Shown: positions 6,178-31,653 of the stretch, in pieces
Numbering within the stretch: the stretch's first letter is position 1
Layout of the letters: every line of letters begins with the position of its first letter
Assembly: GCA_015295945.1 (NCBI GenBank)
Contig: DVED01000108.1
Location: 1 to 39,072 of the forward strand
Direction of reading: 5' to 3'
DNA length: 39,072 nucleotides
From: Oscillatoriales cyanobacterium M59_W2019_021
Lineage (GTDB): Bacteria; Cyanobacteriota; Cyanobacteriia; Cyanobacteriales; Geitlerinemataceae
The notes under the pieces: model-generated
Told to the model about the DNA's origin: nothing
The model's database searches: none
What the model saw: the letters and a program-made list of their open reading frames with translations, nothing else
Translations under genes and position numbers: made by a program

Positions 6178-6273
6178 GGGGATTTCTGATAGTTTTGCTA
6201 CTTCCCCATTATCTCGGAGAAGTGACACGGAAGAATACAGAATTCAGAAGTGCGGGAGAAGACTCGCAAAGAA

Positions 6274-6327
6274 TTTCAGTCCATTTTAATGGAGTTGAGC
6301 GATTAGCCTGGGGTTTAAACCCCAGGC
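6274..6327 (+). repeat. Dispersed palindromic repeat, left copy (forward)
   Basis: The 54-bp element joins two palindromes: TCCATT-TT-AATGGA and the 20-bp perfect palindrome CCTGGGGTTTAAACCCCAGG. An inverted copy with only two mismatches lies at 8238-8290, on the other side of the radical SAM gene. It may be a MITE-like or REP-like mobile unit, or it may form hairpins in transcripts. Confidence 0.8.
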
Positions 6328-6403
6328 GGGTGTTGCCACGGGTGCGAGATCTTCGTAAATGCGGGCAAGGGGAGACGCAGAGCCGTTTCATGTTCTGTAG
6401 GGG

Positions 6404-6541
6404 CAATAAGACCCGGCGATTGGAAATCGCGGCGACAGAATCACTCGTCCGCCGACGCGGACTCAATGAATTTTCAATCCGCGCAGGCGGATTTCGTTTT
6501 TGTAGATGCGGTTTTAACCGCCCAGTTCCAATAAGACCCGG
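6404..6541. repeat. Mosaic of four short hairpins bounded by a 13-bp direct repeat
   Basis: CAATAAGACCCGG occurs at 6404-6416 and again at 6529-6541. Between them lie four perfect inverted repeats: 6416-6430 (GCGATT/AATCGC), 6447-6462 (GTCCGC/GCGGAC), 6476-6493 (AATCCGC/GCGGATT) and 6508-6521 (GCGGTT/AACCGC). Related hairpins occur at 38897-38945. No gene is visible between 6178 and 6602. Confidence 0.7.
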
Positions 6542-6602
6542 TTCATTCAGATGTCGATAGTTTGTTAAGATATATGAAAGTCGATCGCTCAACGTATTCG
6601 CC

Positions 6603-8177: not shown

Positions 8178-8237
8178 GGTGCGTTGAGGCACGAAACGCA
8201 CCGTTGGAGTAAATAATTTCGGTAGAGCAATAACCCA

Positions 8238-8290
8238 CCTGGGGTTTAAACCCCAGGCTAATAGCTAAACTCCATTAAAATGGACTGAAA
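8238..8290 (-). repeat. Dispersed palindromic repeat, right copy (inverted)
   Basis: The reverse complement matches the element at 6274-6327 over 53 bp with two mismatches, including the CCTGGGGTTTAAACCCCAGG palindrome. It lies 60 bp after the radical SAM stop codon, so it could also act as a transcript-end hairpin. Confidence 0.8.
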
Positions 8291-8346
8291 TACTTTCCGA
8301 TCGAGACATGAAACATATTCTTGATTAGCGGCAAACACCCAATCTC

Positions 8347-8365
8347 AAACCCCAAACCCCAAACC
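8347..8365. repeat. Heptamer repeat AAACCCC (STRR-like)
   Basis: AAACCCC is repeated in tandem immediately downstream of the ktrA stop codon. Short tandem heptamers of this kind are well known in cyanobacterial intergenic DNA. Related tracts occur at 9079-9183, 11479-11543 and 31789-31856. Confidence 0.7.
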
Positions 8366-9061
8366 TTAAATCGGCAAACGATCGATATCTTTATTCGAGC
8401 CAATCAACACGAACATCGAGCCCGGAGATAAGCGATATTGTGGCGGGGGATTGACAAGAAACTTTGCCTCTTGACTAACCGCTAATACTGTCACACCGTA
8501 ACGCTTGCGCAGATCTAATTCTGCCAGGGTTCTGCCGATAAATTTATCAGGGACGATCGTTTCGACGATACTGTGTTCGGGATCGAGATCGAAGCGATCA
8601 AGAATTCGCGGTTTGGTGAGCGATCGAGCTAGAGAACAACCCATTTCCCACTCTGGAAACACGACATGATCCGCGCCCACTTTTTTCAACAATTTCATGT
8701 GAATTTCCGAAGAAGCTTTAGCGACAACGTGTTTGACACCGCCTTCCTTTAAATTCAGCGTCGTAGTAATACTTTGAGCGAGATAATTCCCAATAGCAAC
8801 AATGACCGTATCGAATTCTAAAATACCTGCTTCTTTGAGAGCTAAAGGATCGGTCGTATCGACGCGAACGGCATGGGCAGCAATGCGATTGGCTAAGGCT
8901 TTGTTAACCTTATCTTCTTCCCAATCGACAGCAAGAACCTCGTGATTCAAGCTGTGTAACGTCGAACAAACGGCACTACCAAAACGTCCGAGTCCGATGA
9001 CCGCAAATTGCTTATTTTCGGCACTGAGATTGTGAAAGAAATTGAGTTGAGCTAAGTTCAC
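8366..9061 (-). CDS. ktrA: KtrA-type regulatory subunit of K+ uptake (TrkA-N/RCK)
   Basis: This 231-residue cytoplasmic protein has an N-terminal RCK/TrkA-N Rossmann domain with the nucleotide-binding glycine loop VIGLGRFGSAV followed by the acidic strand end VLAVDWEE. A TrkA-C domain follows (about residues 150-230: HSIVETIVPDKFIGRTLAELDLRKRYGVTVLAV). Such subunits gate KtrB channels in response to ATP/ADP or NAD(H) and, in cyanobacteria, support potassium uptake under osmotic stress. The start is GTG at 9061. The gene follows ktrB on the same strand after 116 bp of heptamer repeats, so the two probably form one transcription unit interrupted by a repeat tract. Confidence 0.93.
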   Translation of the reverse strand: MNLAQLNFFHNLSAENKQFAVIGLGRFGSAVCSTLHSLNHEVLAVDWEEDKVNKALANRIAAHAVRVDTTDPLALKEAGILEFDTVIVAIGNYLAQSITTTLNLKEGGVKHVVAKASSEIHMKLLKKVGADHVVFPEWEMGCSLARSLTKPRILDRFDLDPEHSIVETIVPDKFIGRTLAELDLRKRYGVTVLAVSQEAKFLVNPPPQYRLSPGSMFVLIGSNKDIDRLPI

Positions 9062-9078
9062 GCAAAAACTCCAGGTTT

Positions 9079-9183
9079 GTTAGTTGTTAGTTGTTGGTCA
9101 TTTGGGGTTTGGGATTTGGGGTTGGGAAGTTGGTAGGGTGTGCCCCCGGAACGAAACGCACCATTACCCATTACCCATTACCC
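9079..9183. repeat. Heptamer repeat tract between ktrB and ktrA
   Basis: Three repeat types lie side by side: GTTAGTT-like units (9079-9096), TTTGGGGTTTGGG-like units (9101-9126) and CCATTAC units (9161-9183). The last tract overlaps the ktrB stop codon at 9178-9180, so repeat expansion has reached the coding end. Confidence 0.75.
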
Positions 9184-10512
9184 AACCAGCAAATCTTCTT
9201 GCGGGTAATCGACAGCACTAGGTTTCGGATCGCCAATCAACGCAGACATTAACATCAAAACGCTGACCCGACCGACATACATGACGGCAATAATGACTAG
9301 CTTCGCCCACACCGAAACTTGAGCCGTAATTCCCGTAGACAATCCCACGGTGGCAAACGCCGAAAAGACTTCAAAGACCACTTGAATAAAGTCTAATTTT
9401 GGATCGGTAATGGTAATCAGCATCGTGGCAATGACGATGGTTGCCATCGAACCCATGACGCACCCCACGGCTTTTAAAATCGTTTCGGTGGGGACTTGGC
9501 GTTGATATAAAAGGACTTCATCTCGTCCCCGGAGAACGGCGGTCGTGCAATTGGCTAAAACACGTACCGTTGTGGTTTTCAAACCCCCTCCGGTACTGCC
9601 GGGACTGGCACCAATTAACATTAAAGCCATGGTCGCAAAAAGGGCAGCATTGGTCATATGACCGATATCGATACTATTAAACCCAGCAGTTCGGGCGATC
9701 GTCGATTGGAACCACGCTGCCATGACTTTACCTCCGAAACCTAAAGGCGCGAGGGTTTCGGGGTTGTGGAGTTCGGTTAAGAAAAAGATGATCGTGCCGC
9801 CAATCAGTAAAAATAACGTGGTATTGGTCACCACTTTAAAGTGCAGGGAGAAACAAAACCGTTCCGATCGCTGAAATAAAAGATGCTTCAGCCAGTAGTA
9901 GGTTTCCATAATTACCTGATAGCCAATTCCTCCCAAAATCACTAACATAGGAATTGTAAAATTGACGAATGGAGAATCCACGTATTGAACCAGGCTGTCG
10001 GAAAATAGGGAAAATCCGGCGTTATTAAACGCACTGATACTGTGAAAGACCGCATTCCAAACGCCTAGCTGAAATCCGCGTTCGGGAACGAAAACTAGCA
10101 TCAGTAAAAAAACGCCCGTAAGCTGGATTAAAACTGTAGTAGCGATAATCGATCGCACCAGTTGGACGACATTCGAGAGTCCGGTAGCATCGAGGGATTG
10201 TTGGACGGCGAGGCGGTACCGCAGTTTGAACCGTCCCCCCAGTAGTAATAACAGAAATGTGGTTGCCGTCATGTAACCCAAGCCGCCAACTTGGATTAAA
10301 ACCACAACGATCAGTTGTCCCCAAAATGAATAGTGCGTGCCAGTATCGACAACCACTAAACCCGTAACGCAAACCGCAGAAGTGGACGTAAACAGGGCGG
10401 TTACTGGATTGTCCCAAGTGCCGTCCACCAAAGAGAACGGCATCATCAGTAACAGCGTCCCCACTAGAATCACGCCTAGAAAACCCAGGCAAATCGTGCG
10501 CGAGACAGTCAT
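9178..10512 (-). CDS. ktrB: KtrB-type Na+-dependent K+ transporter (TrkH/NtpJ family)
   Basis: The 444-residue integral membrane protein has the four-fold M1-P-M2 layout of the Trk/Ktr/HKT superfamily. Selectivity-filter-like P-loops are visible: STSAVCVTGLVVVDTGTHYS (first), ISAFNNAGFSLFSD (second), STIARTAGFNSIDIG (third) and FSAFATVGLSTGIT (fourth). Each has the key glycine. GASPGSTGGGLKTTTVRV is the conserved loop after the third repeat. It forms the K+-translocating pore in the plasma membrane and needs the KtrA subunit encoded downstream. The ATG at 10512 begins MTVSRTICLGFLGVILVG, the first membrane helix. It is divergent from the methyltransferase gene. Confidence 0.95.
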   Translation of the reverse strand: MTVSRTICLGFLGVILVGTLLLMMPFSLVDGTWDNPVTALFTSTSAVCVTGLVVVDTGTHYSFWGQLIVVVLIQVGGLGYMTATTFLLLLLGGRFKLRYRLAVQQSLDATGLSNVVQLVRSIIATTVLIQLTGVFLLMLVFVPERGFQLGVWNAVFHSISAFNNAGFSLFSDSLVQYVDSPFVNFTIPMLVILGGIGYQVIMETYYWLKHLLFQRSERFCFSLHFKVVTNTTLFLLIGGTIIFFLTELHNPETLAPLGFGGKVMAAWFQSTIARTAGFNSIDIGHMTNAALFATMALMLIGASPGSTGGGLKTTTVRVLANCTTAVLRGRDEVLLYQRQVPTETILKAVGCVMGSMATIVIATMLITITDPKLDFIQVVFEVFSAFATVGLSTGITAQVSVWAKLVIIAVMYVGRVSVLMLMSALIGDPKPSAVDYPQEDLLVG

Positions 10513-10596
10513 TTGACTTAAAACTTAAGAGTTGGGAGTCGAACCCCCTAATGGAAATGTTAGGCTAATTTGTGTCTGTTGCAACCTTGGGGCATT

Positions 10597-11481
10597 ATGA
10601 GCGCGACGCTATCCGATCAAATTGGGGAATTCTACGATACTTCTAGCGGTCTGTGGGAACAGATGTGGGGGGAACACATGCACCACGGCTACTACGGTGC
10701 AGATGGAACCCGTCGTCCGGGACGCAAACAGGCGCAAATCGATTTAATCGAGGAATTGTTGAAATGGACGGCGGATTCCCTGGGGGTGGATTTATCCGGA
10801 GGATCGAACACCCGTCAATTTCTCGATGCGGGTTGCGGCATCGGTGGCAGTACCCTGTATTTGGCGCAGAAGTTTAAGATCAAAGGCATCGGCATTACTC
10901 TGAGTCCGGTACAGGCGGCTAGAGCGATCGATCGGTCTCGGGAAGCCAGAATCGATGGCGAAGTGGGTTTTCTGGTCGCCAACGCCCAAAAAGTGCCGTT
11001 TGCGGACGCATCCTTCGATTGGGTGTGGTCGCTCGAAAGTGGGGAGCATATGCCGGATAAGGAGGGGTTTCTGCGGGAGTGTCACCGGGTGCTGAAACCG
11101 GGGGGAACGTTGATGTTCGCTACTTGGTGTCACCGTCCGACGGAGGAACCTCTAGGGAGGCTTACGGAGTCCGAACAGAAGCTGTTACGAGAGATTTACC
11201 GAATTTATCATTTACCTTACGTCATTTCGCTACCGGAATACGAGGCGATCGCTACGCAACTCGAGTTTCAGAACATCCATACCGCCGATTGGTCGTCCGC
11301 CGTTGCGCCTTTTTGGGATGAAGTCCTCGAATCGGCATTCAATCCTGCCGCAATTTTAGGTCTCCTGATGGCGGGTTGGGGAACAATTCAAGGGGCAATG
11401 GCGATCGGTTTAATGCGCGATGGTTTCGCTCGAGGAACGATTCGCTATGGGGTATTGTGTGCGACCAAAAGTGGTCATTAG
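10597..11481 (+). CDS. Gamma-tocopherol methyltransferase-like SAM methyltransferase
   Basis: The 294-residue class I methyltransferase has SAM motif I FLDAGCGIGGSTLYLA, then NAQKVPFADASFDWVWSLESGEHM and HRVLKPGGTLMFATWCHRP. The N-terminal block YDTSSGLWEQMWGEHMHHGYYG and the C-terminal DWSSAVAPFWDEVLESAFNP closely match the cyanobacterial gamma-tocopherol methyltransferase family (Synechocystis slr0089 and plant VTE4, from memory). It would convert gamma- to alpha-tocopherol at membranes; other small quinol or phenol substrates are possible in paralogs. I chose ATG at 10597. A TTG at 10570 would add nine residues. The stop codon lies at the start of a TCATTGG repeat tract. Confidence 0.88.
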   Translation: MSATLSDQIGEFYDTSSGLWEQMWGEHMHHGYYGADGTRRPGRKQAQIDLIEELLKWTADSLGVDLSGGSNTRQFLDAGCGIGGSTLYLAQKFKIKGIGITLSPVQAARAIDRSREARIDGEVGFLVANAQKVPFADASFDWVWSLESGEHMPDKEGFLRECHRVLKPGGTLMFATWCHRPTEEPLGRLTESEQKLLREIYRIYHLPYVISLPEYEAIATQLEFQNIHTADWSSAVAPFWDEVLESAFNPAAILGLLMAGWGTIQGAMAIGLMRDGFARGTIRYGVLCATKSGH

Positions 11482-11543
11482 TCATTGGTCATTGGTCATT
11501 GGGATAAATAATAAGGACAAAAGACAAGTGACAAAGGACAAAT
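11479..11543. repeat. Heptamer repeats (TCATTGG and GACAA-type) after the methyltransferase
   Basis: TCATTAG-TCATTGG-TCATTGG-TCATTGG begins within the methyltransferase stop codon. It is followed by GACAAAAGACAAGTGACAAA-like units running up to the next gene's start region. This is the same class as 9079-9183 and 31789-31856. Confidence 0.7.
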
Positions 11544-11545
11544 TT

Positions 11546-12553
11546 ATGAACGATAAAATGAAATGGACGATCGCCGGAATGGTGGGGGCAATCGCCTCGA
11601 TCGGATGCAGTTTATCCGCTTCGGCAATGAGTTTTACCGAGTGGTGTACCAATTCCAATTTTAATTCTCCGGCGCGACATACCGTCGAGAAGTTGTTAGA
11701 AATTGCGGGGACGGAAGACTGTGCGGCAGCCGAAACCGAACTGTCGGCAATGACCGATCTCAATCTCAGTGCTAAGGAAATTTCCAATATCGAACCCTTA
11801 GCCGCACTCACGCATTTAGAACGGCTCGATCTCAGCATCAATCAAATTACCGATATCGCTCCCCTATCTTCTCTAACGCAGTTAAAACAACTGTATCTCA
11901 GCAAAAATAAAATTACCGATGTTTCCCCGCTGTCAGATTTAAATCTTATCAAACTCAATCTCGATGGCAACGAACTGGTTGATGTTGCTCCCATAGCTAA
12001 AATTGAAACTTTAAAAGATTTATCCCTGCGAGAAAATCAAATTGTCGATCTGAGTCCTTTAACCGCTTTAAATTCTCTGTCTACTCTGTTCGTCGATGGC
12101 AATCAAATTACCGACCTCCAACCCTTAACTGCCTTCGATACCTTAAGCGGTGCGGATCTCAGTAACAATCAAATTGCCGACTTGCGTCCTTTGGGTACAA
12201 TGAAGCAGTTAGAGTGGATTGCTTTAAGTAACAATCAAATTGAAGATATAACTCCCCTAAAAGAGTTAACGGGATTGGTAGAACTTGACCTCAGTGGCAA
12301 TCAAATTACCGATGTCAGCCCGATCGCCAATTTGACCAATATGAGCGAATTATTCCTCAACAACAATCAAATTGAAGATGTAACGCCGCTAGCATCCCTG
12401 ACCGATTTGACGGCATTATTTTTAAGCGGTAACAAAATTACCGATATCAGTCCGTTAGCTTCTTTACCGCGTTTATCTCGATTGTTAGTGACTGATAATG
12501 CGATCGCCGATCGCACTTGTCCCTTTGAACCGCAGCGAATTTGTCAGTTTTAG
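11546..12553 (+). CDS. Exported leucine-rich-repeat protein (internalin-like repeats)
   Basis: The 335-residue protein has an N-terminal signal peptide (MKWTIAGMVGAIASIGCSL, cleavage likely after SASA). A short cysteine-containing cap follows (TEWCTNSNF...TEDCAAAE), then about eleven 22-residue leucine-rich repeats of the form LxxLxLSxNQITDIxPLxxL, as in bacterial internalins. The array ends in a cap (ADRTCPFEPQRICQF) with two more cysteines. It is probably periplasmic or surface-exposed and binds other proteins; no enzymatic motif is present. The start at 11546 is preceded by AAGGAC. An upstream in-frame extension into the repeat tract is unlikely to be coding. The perfectly regular repeats could vary in number between strains. 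Confidence 0.9.
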   Translation: MNDKMKWTIAGMVGAIASIGCSLSASAMSFTEWCTNSNFNSPARHTVEKLLEIAGTEDCAAAETELSAMTDLNLSAKEISNIEPLAALTHLERLDLSINQITDIAPLSSLTQLKQLYLSKNKITDVSPLSDLNLIKLNLDGNELVDVAPIAKIETLKDLSLRENQIVDLSPLTALNSLSTLFVDGNQITDLQPLTAFDTLSGADLSNNQIADLRPLGTMKQLEWIALSNNQIEDITPLKELTGLVELDLSGNQITDVSPIANLTNMSELFLNNNQIEDVTPLASLTDLTALFLSGNKITDISPLASLPRLSRLLVTDNAIADRTCPFEPQRICQF

Positions 12554-12667
12554 CCAGGAGGTACGCAATTGATCGTCCGAATTATATTAGATCTGGGGAC
12601 TGCCGATAACTAACTTTGCGATCTTTGTGTCTTCGTGGTTTGCAATCATGATTATGAGGAAAATCCA

Positions 12668-13243
12668 ATGTCCAAGTCCAAAAAGAACAAAGGTAAATGG
12701 ATTAAAGAAACCCTAGAACTCAGTGAAAATCACAATTGGAAAGGTACGCCGGGGACGCGAATTTTTGTTGCCGGACGGGGTGCACTGCGGTTCGACGTAC
12801 CCCATGATTGGTATTTTGAACCCGACGAAAAATCCTTCCGGTTTCTCGACAAAAAACCACCCAATGATGACTGTCGCCTAGAAGCTTCGTTTAACCTACT
12901 TCCCCCTGCGAACTGGGCGGAATTTCCCCTCGTTCCCCTGCTGCGAAAAGTCGTCAAAGATGACGATCGAGAAGTGATCGAAACGGGAAAAATCGTACAA
13001 CTCAAACGACAAACTGCTCGCTTGGTTTGGACAGAACTGAAGTTTATCGATCCCGAGGAAAAACGCGAGGCTTATTCGCGAATTTGTATTGGCTTGGGAT
13101 CGGGCGTTCAATGTTTGATCACCTTCGATTATTGGGCAGACCAAGCAGAAAAATTAACGCCCGTTTGGGATACCGTGATGAATTCGGTTGTCCTGGGATT
13201 GTTCATTGCCGACCCGCGTACGGGATTTGCTTTGCCGGATTAG
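12668..13243 (+). CDS. Conserved hypothetical cyanobacterial protein
   Basis: The 191-residue protein starts at ATG 12668, after an AGGA ribosome binding site (TATGAGGAAAATCCAATG). The first 16 residues are lysine-rich (MSKSKKNKGKWIKETL). The remainder looks like a compact alpha/beta fold with LRFDVPHDWYFEPDEKSFRFLDK and YSRICIGLGSGVQCLITFDYWADQAEK. There is no signal peptide or membrane helix. I recognise no catalytic motif and cannot name a function. The stop is one base before the ATG of the next gene, so the two are very likely co-translated. Confidence 0.8.
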   Translation: MSKSKKNKGKWIKETLELSENHNWKGTPGTRIFVAGRGALRFDVPHDWYFEPDEKSFRFLDKKPPNDDCRLEASFNLLPPANWAEFPLVPLLRKVVKDDDREVIETGKIVQLKRQTARLVWTELKFIDPEEKREAYSRICIGLGSGVQCLITFDYWADQAEKLTPVWDTVMNSVVLGLFIADPRTGFALPD

Positions 13244-13244
13244 G

Positions 13245-14132
13245 ATGAATATTACAGAAGTCAAATCTTTAATCCAAAAGGCTCTTCAAGAAACACCCGT
13301 TGGATACCAGCCGCAGGCAGAAGACACCAATCTCGAAAGCGATCTTTTGATGTTCTATTTGCTGCGGCAGAAATCCTGTAGCGATCGATTGCAAATGGCA
13401 GCATCGATGATTCGAGAATCGCGAGGACTATCTTTATACTGCCTTCGCCAACGATTTGGAAACCTCGATCGATCGCAGTTTGCTCGCCAGGTTGCGCGAG
13501 CTTGGCTACAGGAGGATTGTCCGGATAGATTTATTCCCACGGGAGATGAAATGACTTGGATTCAAGACTGCATTCCCCTAGCACGAACCCTACACGAAAT
13601 TTTGGAAAACTCCGGCATTTCTTACTACATTACGGGTGGAGTTGCGGCGATAACCTATGGAGAACCGCGCACGACCAGAGATTTGGATTTAGTGCTATCT
13701 ATTTCCCCAGCAGAGATCGATCGACTGGTGGCAGCTTTAGAAGCAGCAGAGTTTTACGTTTCTGGCGTGGAGGACGCAAAATCCGGTCGGATGCGAACGT
13801 TGAGTATTACCCACATGGTGTCTATTTCTCGGGCTGACTTGATAATAGCTGGAACGGAAGAACTCGATCGCTTACAATTCGATCGGCGGGTCGTCCTGTT
13901 TGTAGAAGGCGCTGGCAATCTCTACTTCACATCGAAAGAGGATGTCGTTCTCAACAAACTCAAGTGGCGGCAACGATCGCACTCGGACAAACAATGGCGC
14001 GACGTTCTCGGGGTTTTGAAGGTTGCGGGTGGCGATCTCGATGTGGAATACCTGAGAAAATGGGCAGATTGCCTGGGAATGACAGATGAGTTGTCTCGCG
14101 CGTTACGAGAAGCTGGACTGGGCAGTCGATAG
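13245..14132 (+). CDS. Nucleotidyltransferase-fold protein (AbiEii/MNT-like)
   Basis: The 295-residue protein has a C-terminal nucleotidyltransferase-fold domain: ISYYITGGVAAITYGEPRTTRDLDLVLSI (about residues 123-151) gives the GG-x-A...R-T-x-D-x-D pattern of minimal and AbiEii-like transferases. Downstream blocks include FTSKEDVVLNKLKWRQ, DKQWRDVLGVL and a helical tail. The first ~100 residues are a separate helical region without a recognised domain. Relatives include toxin-antitoxin transferases, but here the partner is the unrelated 12668-13243 gene, one base upstream. Transfer activity and target are not known. ATG 13245 is preferred because AGG lies in the overlap region and the upstream extension is in the neighbour's coding sequence. 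Confidence 0.8.
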   Translation: MNITEVKSLIQKALQETPVGYQPQAEDTNLESDLLMFYLLRQKSCSDRLQMAASMIRESRGLSLYCLRQRFGNLDRSQFARQVARAWLQEDCPDRFIPTGDEMTWIQDCIPLARTLHEILENSGISYYITGGVAAITYGEPRTTRDLDLVLSISPAEIDRLVAALEAAEFYVSGVEDAKSGRMRTLSITHMVSISRADLIIAGTEELDRLQFDRRVVLFVEGAGNLYFTSKEDVVLNKLKWRQRSHSDKQWRDVLGVLKVAGGDLDVEYLRKWADCLGMTDELSRALREAGLGSR

Positions 14133-23494: not shown

Positions 23495-23785
23495 ATGATT
23501 TCCCAGTTTTCAACGATCGTTGCCGTCCGCGAGCAAGTTTCTTCAGATTTAGCGGACGAATCAGTTATTTTAAATCTTAAATCTGGTGTGTACTATGGCT
23601 TAAATGCAGTCGGAGCTTGGATTTGGAGCCAAATTCAACAGCCGATCGCGGTCAGTTCCTTACAAGAAATTCTCCTCGATAAATACGACGTAGATCCCAA
23701 AGCGTGCGAGCAAGACCTCTTCGCATTATTGCAAGATTTAATGACCGCTCAATTAATCGAGGTTGAGAATGAGGCGGCTGTTTGA
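23495..23785 (+). CDS. Lasso peptide B1 protein, PqqD-like RiPP recognition element
   Basis: The 96-residue protein is a stand-alone RiPP recognition element. VREQVSSDLADESVILNLKSGVYYGLNAVGAWIWSQIQ is the beta-sheet plus helix that binds leader peptides, and the helical part EILLDKYDVDPKACEQDLFALLQDLMTAQLIEV completes the winged fold. B1 proteins bind the YxxPxL leader motif and deliver the precursor to B2. The gene overlaps the next one (B2) by 17 bp in another frame, which points to translational coupling. Upstream ribosome binding is weak. Confidence 0.92.
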   Translation: MISQFSTIVAVREQVSSDLADESVILNLKSGVYYGLNAVGAWIWSQIQQPIAVSSLQEILLDKYDVDPKACEQDLFALLQDLMTAQLIEVENEAAV

Positions 23786-24209
23786 GCGAATTCGCCAAAA
23801 ATATTGCGATCGTAAACTTCTTCTCGAAATCTTTATTTTTCTCAACTTAGTTCGATTGGGATTGCGTTGTCTTCCTTTTCCAACTTTACAAAAACTCCTG
23901 GAAAAAGCCAGCCGATTTTCTCCAAAAACTTCAGAGCGATTGTCCGTTGGCAAAATTGTTTGGGCAGTTGAAACCAGCAGTCGCTATATGCCGGGTGGCA
24001 TTAAGTGTCTCGCTCGTGCTTTAACCACTCAAACTCTGATGAAACAACACAGTCATGTCGGCGAACTTCGCATTGGCGTTGCCAAAGGAGAAACTGGAGA
24101 ATTAGAAGCTCACGCTTGGGTCGAACATCGAGGCAGAATCGTTATCGGTTACCTCAATGACCTAGCACGTTACATCCCCATGTCATCTTTTCAAGGAAGC
24201 AGATCGTGA
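23769..24209 (+). CDS. Lasso peptide B2 protein, transglutaminase-like leader protease
   Basis: The 146-residue protein carries the B2 catalytic pattern: C80 in PGGIKCLARAL, H115 in EAHAWVEHRG and D131 in GYLND. It removes the leader after the penultimate Thr. Its N-terminal ~65 residues are the helical extension usual for separate B2 proteins. I start it at ATG 23769; a TTG at 23763 adds two residues. Its start overlaps B1, and its stop overlaps the cyclase start by four bases (GTGA), so B1, B2 and C form one tightly packed unit. Confidence 0.94.
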   Translation: MRRLFERIRQKYCDRKLLLEIFIFLNLVRLGLRCLPFPTLQKLLEKASRFSPKTSERLSVGKIVWAVETSSRYMPGGIKCLARALTTQTLMKQHSHVGELRIGVAKGETGELEAHAWVEHRGRIVIGYLNDLARYIPMSSFQGSRS

Positions 24210-26221
24210 GCGGCATTGTTGGTATCTTTTATCTTGACGATCGCAGCGTCGAATCGAAACAACTCGAAAGCATGGTCGATCGGATCGCTCATCGCGGACC
24301 TGATGGCTCGAATCTGTGGCTCGAAGGCTCCGTTGGCTTCGGTCATCGGATGCTGTGGACGACCCCCGAATCGCTATTGGAAACCCTACCTTTAGCCAAT
24401 GCAACGGGTGATATCGTTCTCACTGCCGATGCTCGCATCGACAATCGCGACGAGTTAATTCAAAAACTAGATCTGAGCGATCGACCTGCCGAAAAGATTA
24501 CCGACTGCCAACTCATTCTATCTGCCTACGAAAAGTGGGGCAAAGATTGCCCGCAATATCTCTTAGGAGACTTTGCCTTTGCCATTTGGGACGGACGTCA
24601 GCAGCGTTTATTCTGCGCGAGAGACCATATAGGCGTTAAACCATTTTATTACTGCTATCAACCCGGCAAGAGGTTTTTCTTTGCCTCGGAAATCAAAGCA
24701 CTGCTGAGTTTGCCGGAAATTCCCCGCCGAATTAACGAAGTTCGCATCGCCGATTATCTTTATCCGATGTTGGAGGATAAAGCGATTACATCTTACCAGG
24801 GGATTTTCAGATTACCCCCCGCTCAAACCTTAACCGTCAGCGTCCGAGACGACATCAAACTGCAAACCTATTGGTCGCTCGACCCTTCTCGCGAGTTAAT
24901 TCTCGGTTCCGATGAAGAGTATGCCGAAGCCTTTCGCGAGATTTTTACCGAAGCGGTACGCTGTCGTTTGCGGAGTGCTTTTCCCGTCGGTTCCCACCTC
25001 AGTGGTGGACTCGACTCGTCTTCTGTAAGTTGCGTGGCACGCAATCTACTCCAAGAAAAAGATGTTACGTTGCATACCTTTTCCAATATTTTTGACGAGG
25101 TTCCCGAATGTGACGAGCGAACCTATATCGAACCTATCTTAGAGCAGGGGGGTTTTATTCCTCACTACCAACATCCCGATCGAGTCGGTCCCTTGACGGA
25201 ATGGGAACATTTTTTTGAGTGCCAAGACGAATCCTTTATCGGTCCGAGTTGCTACCTCCCTTGGATTCTCAATCGTGCCGCACAACAAGCGGGAGTGCGC
25301 GTAGTGCTAGATGGTTGCGATGGCGATACGACCGTTTGTCACGGCGATGCTTATTTTGCGGAATTGGCACGTCGGGAAGAATGGGAAAAGTTTTTAGTTG
25401 AAGCTAAAGCTGTTTCTCAAAATTTTAAAGGAACGCCGTTAGGATTTCTCTATCAATATGGAATTCCCTATCTAGAAGAACTGGCGAAGCAGTGGCAATG
25501 GGTCGTGTTTGCTAAAAATGCCCGAGAAATCCGCAAGTATTTCAAGATTTCTTACAAACAACTCTTTCTCCAACACGGTCTCAAACCGATCGTTCCTGAA
25601 TTTTGCCGATCGCTCTGGAAAAAGTTGCGGGGACAATCCGAACCCGTCAAGAAGGCAACGTCCGTTATCAATCCTCGTTTCGCTGAAAAGATGGGAATGA
25701 GTTACCGCCTAGAATCCTTTGGTGGAATTCCCAAACCTCCTGTAACAGTGCGAGATTTTCATTGGCGCAAACTGACGTCTGGTGTTTTCCCCTTTGTTCT
25801 CGAATTATCCGATCTCGGTGCGGCTGCCTTCTCGATCGAAGCTCGCCATCCTTTTATGGACAAACGACTGATTGAATTTTGTTTGGCTGTTCCTGCCGAG
25901 CAAAAGTTGAATCAAGGATGGTCTCGGTTAATTTTACGCCGAGCGATGGAAGGGATTCTTCCCAAGCCAGTGCAATGGAGAGGGGGGAAAACAGACATGG
26001 CTCCCAATTTTATCCATGGGTTATTGAAACACAATCGGGATCTGATTGATGAAGTTGTGCGTCAACATTCTGAAGATGTGACTGAGTATATCGATTTAAA
26101 TTTGGTTCGCCAATGTAGAGATTTAGTCTTTCGATCGGCGATCGTTCAAGAAAGTAACATAGTTTATCTTTGGCAATACGTTTCGTTAGCTTTGTGGTGT
26201 CGCGCTCAACAAGTTAAATAA
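24206..26221 (+). CDS. Lasso cyclase (asparagine synthetase B-like)
   Basis: The 671-residue protein has an N-terminal class II glutamine amidotransferase-like domain (residues 1 to ~200: HRGPDG, then LLGDFAFAIWDGRQQRLFCARDHIGVKPFYY). A C-terminal synthetase domain follows with the ATP-pyrophosphatase loop SGGLDSS (266-272) and EARHPFMDKRLIEFCLAVP. In lasso clusters this enzyme adenylates the Asp/Glu side chain and closes the macrolactam. Residue 2 is Ser (MSGIVGIF) where glutaminases have the Cys nucleophile, consistent with a cyclase that does not use glutamine. The start is GTG 24206, overlapping the B2 stop. Confidence 0.93.
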   Translation: MSGIVGIFYLDDRSVESKQLESMVDRIAHRGPDGSNLWLEGSVGFGHRMLWTTPESLLETLPLANATGDIVLTADARIDNRDELIQKLDLSDRPAEKITDCQLILSAYEKWGKDCPQYLLGDFAFAIWDGRQQRLFCARDHIGVKPFYYCYQPGKRFFFASEIKALLSLPEIPRRINEVRIADYLYPMLEDKAITSYQGIFRLPPAQTLTVSVRDDIKLQTYWSLDPSRELILGSDEEYAEAFREIFTEAVRCRLRSAFPVGSHLSGGLDSSSVSCVARNLLQEKDVTLHTFSNIFDEVPECDERTYIEPILEQGGFIPHYQHPDRVGPLTEWEHFFECQDESFIGPSCYLPWILNRAAQQAGVRVVLDGCDGDTTVCHGDAYFAELARREEWEKFLVEAKAVSQNFKGTPLGFLYQYGIPYLEELAKQWQWVVFAKNAREIRKYFKISYKQLFLQHGLKPIVPEFCRSLWKKLRGQSEPVKKATSVINPRFAEKMGMSYRLESFGGIPKPPVTVRDFHWRKLTSGVFPFVLELSDLGAAAFSIEARHPFMDKRLIEFCLAVPAEQKLNQGWSRLILRRAMEGILPKPVQWRGGKTDMAPNFIHGLLKHNRDLIDEVVRQHSEDVTEYIDLNLVRQCRDLVFRSAIVQESNIVYLWQYVSLALWCRAQQVK

Positions 26222-26273
26222 CCATCGAATACAAACTTAAAAGAGCAATACCTCATAATCTTGAAAACTGCTA

Positions 26274-26294
26274 TAAGAACGAAATTCGTTCTTA
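26274..26294. promoter_or_regulatory. 21-bp inverted repeat between cyclase and precursor
   Basis: TAAGAACGAA-A-TTCGTTCTTA is a perfect 10-bp inverted repeat around one base, 53 bp after the cyclase stop. A run of eight T begins about 12 bases later, so it may be a weak terminator or an operator. A second, smaller repeat ATCAAG-AG-CTTGAT lies at 26316-26329, touching a TATAAT at 26329-26334. Confidence 0.5.
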
Positions 26295-26437
26295 ATCAAT
26301 TTGAATTTTTTTTCGATCAAGAGCTTGATATAATTTCTTAAACTTTCTATTTTTTTATTTAAATAGTCGTTTACATTTACTTTAAAAACGTCAATTTTTA
26401 TGCTTAGTTTCATATCAGTAACTTTATGAAATAACTA

Positions 26438-26467
26438 TTGACGATTGCCAGAAATCGAGGCTACATT
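26438..26467 (+). promoter_or_regulatory. Candidate promoter and ribosome binding site of the lasso precursor
   Basis: TTGACG (26438-26443) and TACATT (26462-26467) are separated by 18 bp, pointing to a start near 26474. A strong AGGAG at 26504-26508 lies 9 bases before the precursor ATG at 26518. The precursor therefore probably has its own promoter, separate from B1-B2-C. Confidence 0.5.
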
Positions 26468-26517
26468 AATAGATGTAAGCGCAGTAATGCAACCTAATTC
26501 CCTAGGAGATTTAAAAT

Positions 26518-26724
26518 ATGAAATCCACTTACAATGCTCCCAAGCTGATCCAACACGGAAATTTGGAAGAAATTACCCAAGCTGTGGGAAGTTTGAAATT
26601 TAGCGACACAATTTACCTCAACGACCAAGCTCTTGCGGCTTCTCACGGTTCTCAAGACGCTCACGTCGTTCCTTGCTCTGGCTCTACTTGCACCAGCGAT
26701 CAAGGAGTCAACTCCCCTCAATAA
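26518..26724 (+). CDS. Lasso peptide precursor
   Basis: The 68-residue peptide has a leader that follows the lasso rule exactly: Y5-x2-P8-x-L10-x3-G14-x5-T20-Q21 (MKSTYNAPKLIQHGNLEEIT). Cleavage after Q21 gives Ala22 at core position 1 and Asp30 at core position 9 (AVGSLKFSD), the same Ala1-Asp9 ring geometry as paeninodin. The remaining tail (residues 31-68) is unusually long and holds C53 and C58, a GSQD segment and the end GVNSPQ. An alternative short core, Gly55 to Gln68 with Asp61 at position 7, lacks the penultimate Thr. Genes for B1, B2, cyclase, kinase, exporter and nucleotidyltransferase surround it. The start is set by AGGAG 9 bases upstream. Confidence 0.9.
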   Translation: MKSTYNAPKLIQHGNLEEITQAVGSLKFSDTIYLNDQALAASHGSQDAHVVPCSGSTCTSDQGVNSPQ

Positions 26725-26735
26725 TATTTGAGACT

Positions 26736-26859
26736 ATGAGTTGCAGCCATTTAGCTGTACTCATTGATTGGTATTACATCATTAATATTAGGCTCGATCG
26801 AAATCTGAATTAATTTAAGTCTATTCTTAAATTCTCACATTTCAAGAATCGAGCCTAAT
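26736..26859 (+). terminator. Two strong hairpins between precursor and kinase genes
   Basis: The first hairpin is ATGAGT (26736-26741) pairing with ACTCAT (26759-26764), with CAGC/GCTG inside. The second has an outer 12-bp perfect stem ATTAGGCTCGAT (26787-26798) and ATCGAGCCTAAT (26848-26859), enclosing a perfect 8-bp stem AATTTAAG/CTTAAATT (26812-26833). There is no long T-run, so partial termination or 3'-end protection of the precursor mRNA is more likely than full termination. Confidence 0.6.
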
Positions 26860-26887
26860 CTCAATATTTTCATAAAGGAAAAGCAGA

Positions 26888-27814
26888 ATGTATAATTACA
26901 AAGCCTATAACTTATCTATTAAATCAGATTTTTATTTTCCCGAACTTCTCGATATAGAAAATTCAGCAAGCTCAGATATAGAAATTCGGATTAGTTTCCT
27001 GTCAATTTCTAATTCAGAAATCGACAATCATCCTACCTCATTTTTAGGAAAAGTTGACGGTGCGGGTTTGTTTTTAATCCGGAACGGTAATGAAATTATT
27101 GTCGATCCCGAACCTGGAGTTGAAGAAGCATTAATTCGTCCTTTACTTCTCGGACCGATTATGTGCATTTTGCTGCGGCAAAGAGGAATGCTCGTTTTGC
27201 ATGGTAGCAGCGTCGTGATTGGAGATGAGGCGATCGCTTTTATCGGTCATTCTGGATGGGGAAAATCAACCCTTGCTGATTCGTTTCATGCCAAAGGTTA
27301 TCCTCTCTTAACTGACGATGTAATGGCGCTGCGAATGGATAGAACGCAACCTATTGTTTTCCCTAGTTTTCCACAAGTGAAGCTGTGGCCCGATGCCGCA
27401 AAATCGATTGGGCACGATCCTTCTCAATTACCCTTCCTCAACTCGCAGTCGGAAAAACTCGCTCACAAACTGACAAATGGTTTTGTCCGAGACGCTCTGC
27501 CTTTAAAACGCTTGTACGTTTTGGGAGTGGGAACTCACCACGAAATTATTTCTTTACAACCCCAACAAGCTTTTGTCGAACTCGTTCGTCATTCTAGAAC
27601 CATTACATTACTCAATGATTCGCTCTTCCTCGGCAACCATCTTCAGCATTGCACGAAACTCATCGAGCAAGTCCCCATTGCCCTCCTGAATCGATGTAAA
27701 TCTTTAGCCGCTATCCCCGAACTGATCGAGTTAATCGAAAATGATATCGCCACTCTCAATTCTCAAATTTGGGAAAACCAGAGAAATGATTCTTATTCGC
27801 TTTGCTCGGCTTAA
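26888..27814 (+). CDS. HPr-kinase-like protein of the lasso cluster
   Basis: The 308-residue protein has the HPr kinase P-loop GHSGWGKST (G120-T128), after VLHGSSVVIGDEAIAFI and followed by YPLLTDDVMAL (D143-D144, metal/catalytic). N-terminal residues 1-95 form the small domain usual in this subgroup. True HPr kinases regulate PTS sugar uptake, but genes of this type in paeninodin-like clusters phosphorylate the lasso precursor on a serine near the C-terminus. Here Ser66, third from the end, is the nearest candidate (inference). AAAGGA lies about 10 bases before ATG 26888. Confidence 0.9.
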   Translation: MYNYKAYNLSIKSDFYFPELLDIENSASSDIEIRISFLSISNSEIDNHPTSFLGKVDGAGLFLIRNGNEIIVDPEPGVEEALIRPLLLGPIMCILLRQRGMLVLHGSSVVIGDEAIAFIGHSGWGKSTLADSFHAKGYPLLTDDVMALRMDRTQPIVFPSFPQVKLWPDAAKSIGHDPSQLPFLNSQSEKLAHKLTNGFVRDALPLKRLYVLGVGTHHEIISLQPQQAFVELVRHSRTITLLNDSLFLGNHLQHCTKLIEQVPIALLNRCKSLAAIPELIELIENDIATLNSQIWENQRNDSYSLCSA

Positions 27815-27908
27815 TAAATTATTGTATTTCCAGATTTTTGGCATATTAGATTGAATGAGAATTGTTCTTAGATGCCAATTTTGAACGTAACTCATCGACG
27901 ATTTTTCG

Positions 27909-29777
27909 ATGTTGAGGATAGATAAAGTGGGTTCATCCTTCCAGACTAAATTACACAAAGCGATCGCTCAACTCTCCTACTTCCCGCAAACTTTGCGGCT
28001 CTTGTGGTCGGCTGCTCGAAATTGGACGATCGCTTGGGCAATTCTACTGGTAATTCAGGGGTTAATTCCCGTTGCCATTGTTTATCTCACTCGTCAAGTT
28101 GTTAATAGCTTGGTGGCAGTTACGGGTGCGGGTTTAGCGTGGGAAAGCCTCCAGCAAATTCTATTCCCAACGGCATTGCTTGTAGGTGTTTTGTTACTCA
28201 CTAGTAGTTTGAGCAGCGCGATCGAATGGGTGCGTACTGCTCAAGCTGAATATGTCGAGGATTATATCAATACTGCTATCAATCAAAAGTCGATCGAGGT
28301 CGATTTATCGGTTTACGAATCTTCCGAATATTACGATTATTTAAACCGCGCTCTCAGCAACGCCAGCAGTAGCTCTCTAGCTCTCCTGGAAAATACGGGA
28401 AGTCTGTTTCAAAACAGTATTACTTTATTTTCGATGGCAGCAGTGTTAATTCCTTATGGGTTATGGCTGCCAGCCGTTCTGGTCGTGAGTGCTTTTCCCG
28501 CATTTTATATGGTGTCGTACTTCAATCGCCGCTATCACCACTGGTGGCAGAAAAGTACGACCGATCGACGACGGTTGCAATACTATCAAATGCTGATGAC
28601 GAATAATCAAGTCGCATCGGAATTGCGACTGTTTAACTTAGGATCGTCATTTCAAGCAACCTATCGACAGTTGCGCCGCCAACTCAGAGCCGAGCGATTA
28701 AAACTTATTGCCATTCAAAGTTTGGGTAGCTTGTTAGCCAGCATCACCGGATTGATAATGGTTGGTTTGGCAATGGCTTGGACGGTGCGACAAGTGTTGC
28801 AAGGACAGATGACCCTAGGCGATTTAGCCCTCTTTTTCCAGGCTTTCAATCAGGGGCAAAATTTACTGCGATCGCTCCTGGGCAGCTTGGGAAAAATTTA
28901 TCGCAACAGCTTATTTGTTAGCAATCTCTTCGCCTTTTTACGCCTAGAACCTCAAATCGTAGATCCGCCGCAACCGCAACCCACTCCGGCAAAAATTCAG
29001 CAGGGAATCTGCTTCCGGAACGTCTCCTTTGCGTATCCCAATAGCGATCGCCACGTTCTCAAAGATTTTAACCTCACTATCCCCGCTGGGAAAATCGTTG
29101 CCATTGTCGGCGATAACGGCGCGGGCAAAAGTACCCTCGTCAAACTCCTCTGTCGCTTTTACGATCCGTCTTCCGGCAAAATCGAACTCGATGGTATCAA
29201 CCTGCGCGACTTTGCTGTCGAAAAACTCCGACGCCTGATTACCGTTCTCTTCCAATTCCCCATCACCTACCAACTCACTGCCGCTGAGAATATCGCTTTG
29301 GGCGACCTATCTGCCAATCCCAGCACCGACAACATCGAAATGGCAGCTAAGGGTGCTGGAGCGCACGAAATTATCGATCGCTTGCCCAAAAAATACGACG
29401 CTCTCCTCGGTAAATACTTCCCGGGCGGAACGGATCTCAGCGGGGGAGAATGGCAGCGCATCGCCCTCGCTCGTGCCTTTTTGCGCCGCGCCCAAATGAT
29501 TATTCTCGACGAACCCACCAGTGCCATGGACCCCTGGGCGGAATTCGATTGGTTGGAACGATTCCGCACCCTCGCTAACGGTCGCACTGCCGTTGTCATT
29601 ACCCACCGCTTTACCCTCGCTATGCGTGCCGACATCATCCACGTTATGCGCTTCGGGGAAATTGTCGAATCGGGAACCCACAACGAACTCATCGCTCGCG
29701 GTGGTTTCTACGCTCAATCCTGGAAAACCCAAATGGAAGCCACCCAAGACTCGGCTCTCGAAAACGCTCTCGTTTGA
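27909..29777 (+). CDS. ABC exporter (fused membrane and ATPase domains), lasso D protein
   Basis: The 622-residue half-transporter has a six-helix membrane domain (about residues 30-330) and a nucleotide-binding domain. The latter has Walker A GDNGAGKST (401-409), Q-loop FQFPITYQ, signature LSGGEWQ (510-516), Walker B MIILDEP (530-536) and H-loop VITHRFT. There is no N-terminal C39 peptidase domain, as expected when B2 removes the leader. It should export the mature peptide, giving self-protection. ATG 27909 is used; a GTG at 27927 preceded by GAGG is an alternative that changes only the N-terminal tail. Confidence 0.93.
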   Translation: MLRIDKVGSSFQTKLHKAIAQLSYFPQTLRLLWSAARNWTIAWAILLVIQGLIPVAIVYLTRQVVNSLVAVTGAGLAWESLQQILFPTALLVGVLLLTSSLSSAIEWVRTAQAEYVEDYINTAINQKSIEVDLSVYESSEYYDYLNRALSNASSSSLALLENTGSLFQNSITLFSMAAVLIPYGLWLPAVLVVSAFPAFYMVSYFNRRYHHWWQKSTTDRRRLQYYQMLMTNNQVASELRLFNLGSSFQATYRQLRRQLRAERLKLIAIQSLGSLLASITGLIMVGLAMAWTVRQVLQGQMTLGDLALFFQAFNQGQNLLRSLLGSLGKIYRNSLFVSNLFAFLRLEPQIVDPPQPQPTPAKIQQGICFRNVSFAYPNSDRHVLKDFNLTIPAGKIVAIVGDNGAGKSTLVKLLCRFYDPSSGKIELDGINLRDFAVEKLRRLITVLFQFPITYQLTAAENIALGDLSANPSTDNIEMAAKGAGAHEIIDRLPKKYDALLGKYFPGGTDLSGGEWQRIALARAFLRRAQMIILDEPTSAMDPWAEFDWLERFRTLANGRTAVVITHRFTLAMRADIIHVMRFGEIVESGTHNELIARGGFYAQSWKTQMEATQDSALENALV

Positions 29778-29832
29778 GCCAACTTAAGCGAATTGACACG
29801 ATCTTGTATCCCTCATCTGGAGTTTCCCGCTC

Positions 29833-30918
29833 ATGTCTACTACACTTGTCCGCCATCTTTTGCGTTTGGTATTGGCAAATCCCCATACCGATGAGTTGGA
29901 GTCCGCCCGACTGGACTTGAAGTCAGCCACTCAATCCCAGTGGCAGCAAGCTTTAGAAACCCTGGCATTACATCGATTGCTGCCCCTCGTGGCTTATTCT
30001 TTAGAAAAGCGCGGTTTTACCGACCCGATTCCCCCTGCCGTGCTAGAGGGACTGCAAGCCTCGTACCGCCAAACCCTCGCCCAAAATACGATTTTTCTGC
30101 TATCCCTCGCGGGCATCTTACGAGCCATGGAGGCGCGAAAGTTGCATCCCGTTTTGTGGAAAGGCATCGTCTTAGCCGACAGTTTCTACCCGGATTTGGG
30201 AACTCGCCCCATGACCGATATCGATTTTTCGATTCCAGGGGATGAGCTAGAGGAAGCCATTGCGGCGTTTGCATCGCTGGGATTCGTCAAGCGAGACCAC
30301 ATGACGACTGAGGATGCCATTTACGTTGCCAATGCGATGGGCGTTTATTGCGACGTTCACCATCGCGTGCGGTTGTTTGAGGGTAAGGAGTCGATGAATT
30401 TGACGGTTGACGTGCCGCCCCAACAACTCCAAGTCCCGACGTTCAGGATTTTAGAACCGAATGCCATGTTGGTACACTTGGTATTTCACCTCAACGGACA
30501 TCTCAACGAAACCGGTCTGATGCTGTCTTGGATTCTCGATATTGCCTTTGTGTTGCGCCAATGGGGGAGTTCCCTCGCTCCGGCGAGGTTGCAGCAACTC
30601 ATGCCTGAGAAGCGGCATTGGGTGTCTTTATTTCGGATCTTGCGTTTTCTCGAAGCGGAGTTTGACGAACCCATCCCAGAGTGTTTGGCAGCTTCCGCCC
30701 GGAATTTTGCGCCGTTTACGCTGGGGGAAATTCTCCGTCAGCGACGGTTGACGATGTGGGAGTTACCCCATTGGCGGGGATGGCTGCGACTGGGTGCGAG
30801 CCGATTAGGGATCGAATTGAAGCGCGGTTATCCGACGCTGCAAGGTGACGATTTGCTGGGATGGGTGACCGATGCGGCAACGGCACGACGGATGGCAAGC
30901 TATCCGATTTCTCAGTAA
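29833..30918 (+). CDS. Nucleotidyltransferase family protein of the lasso cluster
   Basis: The 361-residue protein belongs to the NTP_transf_5-type nucleotidyltransferases. VLWKGIVLADSFYPDLGTR (K110-G111) and PMTDIDFSIP (D129-x-D131) form the catalytic pattern. EDAIYVANAMGVYCDVHHRVRLFE continues the fold and HLVFHLNGHLN is the later helix. Members recur in lasso clusters next to HPr-kinase-like genes and are suspected of tailoring the phosphorylated peptide. The activity here is inference. It lies 55 bp after the exporter gene on the same strand, after GGAG. It is probably the last gene of the cluster, since the next gene has a different character. Confidence 0.86.
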   Translation: MSTTLVRHLLRLVLANPHTDELESARLDLKSATQSQWQQALETLALHRLLPLVAYSLEKRGFTDPIPPAVLEGLQASYRQTLAQNTIFLLSLAGILRAMEARKLHPVLWKGIVLADSFYPDLGTRPMTDIDFSIPGDELEEAIAAFASLGFVKRDHMTTEDAIYVANAMGVYCDVHHRVRLFEGKESMNLTVDVPPQQLQVPTFRILEPNAMLVHLVFHLNGHLNETGLMLSWILDIAFVLRQWGSSLAPARLQQLMPEKRHWVSLFRILRFLEAEFDEPIPECLAASARNFAPFTLGEILRQRRLTMWELPHWRGWLRLGASRLGIELKRGYPTLQGDDLLGWVTDAATARRMASYPISQ

Positions 30919-31047
30919 GAGGCTGTTGATATACTCTTTCTTAAGAGCGATCGAAGAGGTTCAAACTTAACCTTCCAGCCGAGAGGCAACTGGTAAGATG
31001 AGAGGCGTTGTTTAGTGAATGACCCACTCATCCACAGGAGTTTCACC

Positions 31048-31653
31048 GTGCTGGAAAACCGCGACTATACCTTGATTATCGACAAAAGCGGCAGTATGTC
31101 CGCCCAAGACCAAGCCGATCGTAAAAGCCGCTGGGAAGTCGTGCAAGAATCAACCCTGGCGCTGGCGCAAAAATGCGAAGAGTTCGATCCCGACGGCATA
31201 ACGGTTTATGTTTTTTCGAGTCGATTCAAGCGCTATGATAATGTCACCTCCGATAAAGTGACGCAAATTTTTGAGGAGAACGATCCGGTAGGACGCACGG
31301 ATCTCGCCAGCGTCTTACAGGACGCCCTCGATAACTTCTTCGCACGCAGAGCGGCAGGGACGACCCAACCCAATGGGGAAACCATGTTGGTGATTACCGA
31401 TGGGGAACCCGACGATCGCAAAACCGTGATGAAGCAAATTATCGAAGCTTCTCGGAAAATCGATCGCGACGAGGAATTGGCGATTTCCTTTATCCAAGTC
31501 GGCGACGATCCCAAGGTAACGGAGTTTTTGAAGGCATTGGACGATAACCTGCAAGAAGCCGGGGCAAAGTTCGATATTGTCGATACTGTGACCTTGGAAG
31601 ATATGAAGGGTTTGAGTCTCTCAGATGTTCTGCTCAACGCGGTCGTGGATTGA
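31048..31653 (+). CDS. VWA-domain protein
   Basis: The 201-residue protein is a single von Willebrand A domain with an intact MIDAS site: DKSGSMS (D12, S14, S16), the threonine in GRTDLASVLQ and the aspartate in VITDGEPDD. It probably binds other proteins in a metal-dependent way; no enzymatic motif is present. GTG 31048 is chosen over GTG 31015 because AGGAG (31036-31040) lies 7 bases before it. There is no signal peptide or membrane segment, so it acts in the cytoplasm. MoxR-type ATPases often pair with VWA proteins, but no such gene is adjacent here. Confidence 0.88.
   Translation: MLENRDYTLIIDKSGSMSAQDQADRKSRWEVVQESTLALAQKCEEFDPDGITVYVFSSRFKRYDNVTSDKVTQIFEENDPVGRTDLASVLQDALDNFFARRAAGTTQPNGETMLVITDGEPDDRKTVMKQIIEASRKIDRDEELAISFIQVGDDPKVTEFLKALDDNLQEAGAKFDIVDTVTLEDMKGLSLSDVLLNAVVD

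Follow-up and report, generated by a model that had tools for sequence, protein, structure and literature searches.

A kinase-bearing cyanobacterial lasso peptide cluster encoding a long-tailed precursor, probably phosphorylated at an internal serine

Comparison with described lasso peptide systems

The paeninodin and pseudomycoidin clusters combine precursor, B1, B2 and cyclase genes with an HprK-like kinase (PadeK, PsmK) that carries an H-K-D-D motif, and the pseudomycoidin cluster also has a gene annotated as a nucleotidyltransferase, PsmN (PMC9266682). In lasso clusters with this kinase the C-terminal Ser is described as extremely conserved and as the residue modified by classical lasso kinases (PMC9266682). 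Clusters with both a kinase (K) and a nucleotidyltransferase-like gene (N) have been published from Bacillus (PMC9266682) and Bradymonas (PMC10368454). For cyanobacterial lasso peptides, the literature that we searched holds only genome-mining predictions, including PMC9332814 and PMC9967302 (PMC7533575 was a further source); the search covered titles, abstract openings and few subscription papers, and the fact that it turned up no cyanobacterial lasso peptide isolated so far argues only weakly that none has been reported. One prediction, from Cyanocohniella sp. LLY, has the genes B1, B2, C and A, its peptide being predicted at 36 residues, and the passages of PMC9332814 consulted mention no kinase, N, tail Ser or Cys. 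Here we examine seven genes at positions 23495-30918 of a 39,072-nucleotide stretch (the window) from Oscillatoriales cyanobacterium M59_W2019_021. The window makes up all of contig C144, one of 212 contigs that assemble to 4.99 Mb. Judged from its sequence, the locus is likely to be a paeninodin-like, kinase-bearing lasso cluster of the cyanobacterial branch curated by NCBI, making a long-tailed peptide that is probably phosphorylated at an internal Ser.

The seven open reading frames (ORFs) lie on the forward strand in the order B1-B2-C-A-K-D-N, where the original prediction had placed them, and include the B1/B2 and B2/C overlaps that it described (23 nt, or 17 nt if B2 starts at the ATG at 23769, and 4 nt, respectively). 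The remaining gaps are 296 (C/A), 163 (A/K), 94 (K/D) and 55 nt (D/N). Proteins were assigned to families with Pfam and NCBIfam profiles at curated cut-offs. B2 (23763..24209; 148 aa from a TTG start) is a leader peptidase of the transglutaminase-like Cys protease type (NF033537, 104.9 bits; cut-off 33), and its catalytic Cys82 and His117 are kept in 33 of 33 aligned B2 sequences, the window counted. C (24206..26221; 671 aa), a lasso macrolactam synthetase homologous to Asn synthetase, scores 1008.2 bits with NF033535 (lass_lactam_cya; cut-off 525). Its loop residues S266, G267, G268, D270 and S271 occur in all 41 aligned C proteins and L269 in 40. Position 2 is Ser, not Cys, in 39 of the 41; an active glutaminase is expected to have Cys there. 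The 68-aa precursor A (26518..26724) scores 47.6 bits with NF033528 (lasso_cyano; cut-off 33) and has homologues between C and K in relatives. Cyclase and precursor thus both exceed the cut-offs of the cyanobacterial lasso families, although the NF033528 match covers positions 1-29 of 35, the leader and core start, and is silent on the long tail with its Ser and Cys pair.

B1 (23495..23785; 96 aa) is a stand-alone, PqqD-like recognition element (RRE) for ribosomally synthesized and post-translationally modified peptides (PF05402, 60.5 bits; cut-off 23.4). A phmmer search of PDB sequences matched it to 9x90, a 'Lasso peptide biosynthesis PqqD family chaperone' (E 2.9e-16), and to TbiB1 (5v1u, E 2.1e-10); the same search with B2, K and N gave no useful relative. 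Against the lasso assignment, B1 scores 76.2 bits with the lasso-specific NF033536, just below its cut-off of 80. D (27909..29777; 622 aa) is an ABC exporter with fused permease and ATPase (PF00005, 114.4 bits, cut-off 25; PF00664, 30.5 bits, cut-off 28).

The locus therefore holds an Asn-synthetase-like cyclase, a B2 with its Cys-His pair, an RRE, and a precursor with a YxxPxL leader, Thr at -2 and an acidic residue (Asp or Glu) at core position 7-9. It is almost certainly a complete lasso peptide cluster. The original prediction of such a cluster, both tailoring genes included, is borne out by the scores of B2, C and A above NCBI lasso cut-offs and by a precursor-like ORF directly 3' of C in 57 of 62 relative clusters (defined below).

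The precursor core and its conserved tail

The 21-residue leader (26518..26580) carries Y5, P8, L10, G14 and T20, which places Thr at -2, where BsfA of Bradymonas sediminis has Ile (PMC10368454). Cutting after T20-Q21 would leave a 47-residue core with a predicted macrolactam ring, A1-D9 (AVGSLKFSD; 26581..26607), followed by 38 residues of loop and tail (26608..26721). Within the tail lie S24 (precursor S45; 26650..26652), set in GSQD, and the segment C-S-G-S-T-C (26674..26691), a C-x4-C pair with both Cys in the tail (precursor 53 and 58; core 32 and 37). The precursor ends in NSPQ, and its final Gln rules out a C-terminal Ser as the phosphosite in the window. Compared with paeninodin and pseudomycoidin, the unusual features here are the 47-residue core, the tail Cys pair and an internal conserved Ser replacing the C-terminal one, none of which appeared in the original prediction.

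To compare precursors among relatives, we took ORFs of fewer than 140 codons that fit the leader pattern (which missed two precursors that came to light otherwise, L015:1400 and L119), counted cores from two residues past the leader Thr and counted identical cores once. The first set, 67 pattern-found ORFs plus the window, gave 62 distinct cores, 46 of them of at least 30 residues ('long'). The leader Pro, Gly and Thr, and either Tyr or Trp, are present in all 46 long-core precursors, these being residues that the search pattern required. Asp stands at core position 9 in 40 of the 62 cores and at position 8 in 7 more. The most conserved core positions of the long-core relatives are the ring Asp (45 of 46) and one tail Ser, S24 in the window, whose column holds Ser in 40 and Thr in 2; two Gly columns follow with 36 and 35. 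Among 41 non-redundant sequences, 35 had Ser in this column, and the best Ser column reached at most 17 in 200 tail shuffles, a control that leaves relatedness uncontrolled. Only the Ser column was used from it, because the any-residue version was uninformative (shuffles averaged 29 and reached 40).

A second set of 31 new distinct cores had Asp at position 9 in 21 and at position 8 in 7, and Cys numbers of 0 or 2; of its 23 long cores, 15 had the internal Ser motif and 2 a terminal Ser. Several points weaken the Ser pattern. The second set is not fully independent, because the Asp and Ser columns were already part of the profile used to find it; the tail-Ser motif, like the labels of the K tree below, was written after the sequences had been seen; and 10 of the 62 first-set cores (4 of the 46 long ones) still end in Ser. 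Both sets, with ten cores from loci taken later, were pooled into 103 distinct cores, in which Asp is at position 9 in 65, at 8 in 16 more and at 7 in 3 more. Closure of the ring between A1 and D9, following the predicted cleavage, is very probable.

Cys residues number zero in 66 of the pooled cores, two in 36 and three in one, never one, and none falls in the first nine residues. Two-Cys cores come from 17 of 56 sources; a Poisson estimate for the missing single-Cys cores ignores relatedness, and we do not rely on it. We lean towards a disulfide between the paired tail Cys, as proposed from this pairing. Pandonodin, a class IV lasso peptide with a tail-tail disulfide, resembles the window peptide in having both Cys past the ring and an unusually long tail, but totals 33 aa, 18 of them in the tail (PMC13352647), and its cluster, unlike the window, is said to hold no genes beyond A-D (PMC9266682). 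A long core, a conserved internal Ser and paired Cys are common to many of the relatives and not peculiar to the window, although the combination of GSxD..V.P with a Cys pair, a pattern drawn up post hoc, occurs only in the window and one other of the 103 cores. Five other loci (L065, L080, L114, L117 and L127) have three to five tandem precursors per cluster, mostly with similar Cys-pair cores.

Tailoring genes and the site of modification

K (26888..27814; 308 aa) is recognized as an HprK-like peptide kinase by its motif and structure model, not by family cut-offs. It falls below those of the HprK models (PF07475, 20.2 vs. 33.3 bits), which counts against this identification. The motif residues H105, G120, G123, G125, K126, S127, D143 and D144 are conserved in 42, 38, 41, 42, 42, 42, 40 and 42, respectively, of 42 aligned K proteins (window counted), with Glu in the other 2 at the D143 column. 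They match BsfK (H148-G163-G166-G168-K169-S170-D186-D187) in residues and spacing (PMC10368454). The model, with a predicted local distance difference test score (pLDDT) of 89.4, has its fold matches among phosphoenolpyruvate carboxykinases, the best at E 2.5e-9, and in an HPr kinase (3tqf; E 3.7e-6, TMt 0.61). The H-K-D-D residues of paeninodin-like kinases are therefore present (H105, K126, D143, D144), whereas the C-terminal Ser substrate is not. That K acts on the precursor is likely.

The distribution of Ser motifs points to S24. In the first set an internal GSx(D/N)-type motif occurs in 32 of 62 cores and a terminal Ser in 10, both together in one core (Fisher p 0.005, for a motif defined post hoc). 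A tree of 55 K proteins has a 30-row clade that includes the window (support 99/96), and 26 of its rows are labelled internal-Ser; 26 of the 28 internal-labelled rows fall inside this clade and 18 of the 20 C-terminal-labelled rows outside it, the latter label also covering short cores with Ser among the last four residues. The internal label requires 7 changes on the tree, compared with 18.7 in shuffles. Weighing against such a reading, the genes of a cluster are inherited as a unit, and shared descent by itself could produce this tree without the kinases having adapted to the position of the Ser. The bsf cluster of B. sediminis has the same seven gene types and kinase motif spacing as the window and does not use a C-terminal Ser as described; BsfK uses core Ser3 (PMC10368454), a position taken by Gly in the window core, where the conserved Ser is at core 24. 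LppK likewise uses Ser3 (PMC13381572). Kinases acting on a non-C-terminal Ser are thus already known, but a phosphosite in the middle of the tail would be new; in the same literature search we found no report of a conserved internal tail Ser, again weak evidence of absence. S24 is our leading candidate for the phosphorylation site, with doubt slightly outweighing confidence.

A possible alternative, which we hold more tentatively, is that K targets another residue, either S4 or S8 of the ring or the last Ser of the core (S45), and that the tail Ser is structural, for example as part of a plug or in recognition by the exporter. The window core contains eight Ser, so that S24 is not the sole candidate, and this counts against the assignment, as do the precedents of BsfK (PMC10368454) and LppK (PMC13381572), which act near the core N terminus, and of PadeK, which uses the Ser at the C terminus (PMC9266682). 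However, among the 46 long cores, Ser in any one column of the ring or C terminus is found in fewer than half, compared with 40 for the tail Ser.

It is also conceivable, though rather unlikely, that the long tail is a follower, cut back once the ring has closed (for example near S24), giving an ordinary-sized lasso peptide that ends in phospho-Ser as paeninodin does. A cut after S24 would again provide K with a C-terminal Ser, and known lasso peptides are short; even pandonodin, which has the longest tail, has only 33 aa in all according to a 2026 review (PMC13352647). However, the sequence past the Ser is itself conserved in relatives, either as GSxDG with V or I and then P after it, or as GSxDxC...C, and the Cys pair lies after the Ser motif in 31 of the 36 two-Cys cores. 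By Pfam, B2 is the only protease among the seven genes; the rest of the genome was not searched for proteases. We consider retention of the whole tail of the 47-residue core in the product to be evenly balanced.

N (29833..30918; 361 aa) is a nucleotidyltransferase-fold protein (PF14907, 132.7 bits; cut-off 31.2), and its K110, G111, D129 and D131 are kept in 14 of 15 aligned N proteins. A single N family across all clusters is ruled out, since the window N is only 18-23% identical to eight homologues from relative loci. A scan of 290 genomes gave close homologues (at least 49% identity; E cut-off 1e-40) in 7 besides the window's own, and because all 7 also have a lasso-precursor match, N appears tied to lasso-type clusters. 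The two genes share a contig within ~5 kb in four of these genomes (G004, G460, G500, G557) and lie on different contigs of the assemblies in the other three. N follows D on the same strand, as in the window, in two of the four linked relatives (L126, L133). The tie is loosened by the other two (L124, L134), where N is found on the opposite strand, upstream of B1, and by L133, in which no cyclase was picked up.

What N adds may be judged from PsmN, which led to one or two hexoses on the phosphate of phospho-Ser in E. coli; PMC9266682 leaves open whether a host glycosyltransferase acted after nucleotidylation. Because of this outcome, a sugar is at least as likely an addition by N as a nucleotide. 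That N modifies the phosphate at all seems to us about as probable as the opposite. A genuine nucleotidyltransferase adenylylating the phosphate or the peptide is an unlikely but serious alternative: the nucleotidyltransferase motif is conserved, and the nearest solved folds to the N model are ANT(2'')-Ia adenylyltransferases (TMt 0.65-0.70, best E 1.4e-3). Against adenylylation stand the hexoses obtained with PsmN, the lack of a visible effect of LppN in B. subtilis as reported in PMC13381572, and the N model itself, which is of moderate quality (pLDDT 70.7) and has no fold match reaching E 0.001. Of the phosphate- or nucleotide-modified product first proposed for this locus, phosphorylation is still the most likely part, but the only N product reported, that of PsmN, bears hexoses and not a nucleotide (PMC9266682).

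Finally, an LPP-type product, a linear phosphorylated peptide whose cluster has RRE, HprK-like kinase, nucleoside triphosphate transferase and exporter, is very improbable here: K, N and the exporter are common to LPP clusters (PMC13381572), but LPP clusters have no macrolactam cyclase and use an SpI-type signal peptidase, whereas the window has a full-length cyclase with an intact SGGLDS loop, an adjoining B2, a conserved ring Asp and, by Pfam, no signal peptidase among its seven genes.

In the lasso pathway that we propose, B1 would bind the YxxPxL leader and K, probably aided by B1, would phosphorylate the precursor, most likely at S24; BsfB1, which speeds up BsfK, offers a precedent for such aid (PMC10368454). 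B2 would then cleave after T20-Q21, and C would link the A1 N terminus with D9, closing the ring around the threaded tail. A disulfide between the paired tail Cys would give a class IV topology, the phosphate may receive a hexose or nucleotide from N, and D would export the product.

Relatives, spread and significance

For gene order we scanned 60 loci (23 found by cyclase, plus two groups of 17 and 20 stretches) and, with two duplicate clusters removed, kept the 62 clusters whose cyclase ORF measures 1500 nt or more; shorter cyclase ORFs were dropped (e.g., L029), and some loci are cut by contig ends. Cyanobacterial titles belong to 17 of the 23 loci in the first cyclase-found set, and records not titled as cyanobacteria are the source of 5 of the 62 clusters. 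The 21 clusters from the last-added stretches and L080 were selected by precursor match, so the presence of a precursor in them is unsurprising; the other 41 were, except for L080, selected by cyclase. In this mostly cyclase-chosen subset, a precursor-like ORF directly follows C in 37 of 41 clusters and the order C-A-K is found equally often. Across all 62 clusters, C-A-K occurs in 56, B2-C-A-K in 44, B1-B2-C-A-K-D in 30, and the full order of the window, with N last, in 7. A kinase lies downstream of C in 60. N is present in 20, a lower figure because the neighbourhood count goes no further than the following B1 or C, or the end of the contig. These are counts of clusters, not of independent events, because near-copies are included (e.g., L019, L020, L023, L027 and L028).

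A cyclase above the family cut-off was found in 16 of 386 sampled genomes of the phylum, and at E 0.001 the long-core precursor profile had matches, many of them weak and short, in 71 of 388 genomes from the order. From these gene orders and genome counts, the window cluster, complete and bearing both kinase and N, is an ordinary member of a known and widespread cyanobacterial kind. Placement of the precursor after the cyclase together with K and N, which the original prediction took as unusual in a cyanobacterium, cannot be claimed as a novelty, given the norm of C-A-K among relatives, the 20 clusters with N, and the precedents in Bacillus and Bradymonas.

Other loci seen during the survey deserve mention. 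The same genome has a second lasso cluster (L064; G000:C49, 3966-9263), with B1-B2, ~1 kb, and then C-A-A-K up to the contig end, encoding 21-residue cores; another contig starts with D followed by N (L131; G000:C207, 1-2658) and may be the other half of this cluster. A decayed third cluster (L132; G000:C128, ~39.2-41.8 kb) retains B1, B2, K fused in frame to an apparent D start, and the last part of N; neither a cyclase nor a precursor was detected across its 16-kb stretch. L133 (G500; 6245-14041) has the order B1-B2-A4-K-D-N and a 341-residue ORF between K and D, and its precursors have a lasso-type leader followed by DVSSGMPPR and long GGR repeats; two G552 contigs (L138, L140) hold parts of an L133-like cluster with Gly/Arg-rich cores. 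Within the window, a perfect 10-bp inverted repeat directly past the cyclase gene (26274-26294) and a 27-nt one (78%) in the A/K gap (26772-26874) flank the precursor gene, each as a possible transcript end or attenuator; a terminator scan flagged neither. That scan gave 7 sites vs. 9.3 in shuffles, and a promoter scan gave 18 vs. 10.6 (sd 3.3); no conclusion is built on either. A vWA (TerF-like) gene lies on the same strand 96 nt past N (31015-31653).

Taken together, we tentatively suggest that such loci form a distinct subfamily of cyanobacterial lasso peptides with cores of ~30-60 residues, in which HprK-like kinases would act on a conserved internal tail Ser rather than a C-terminal one, often with a tail-tail disulfide, and in which the phosphate and whatever N adds to it may serve as a mid-tail plug. 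The window peptide, with 47 residues and 38 past the ring, would be among the largest lassos and, if the whole core is kept, longer than the longest lasso peptides named in PMC13352647 (30 and 33 aa). The long cyanobacterial cores mostly break the C-terminal Ser rule, and their one conserved internal Ser would allow the proposal to be tested at a single residue.

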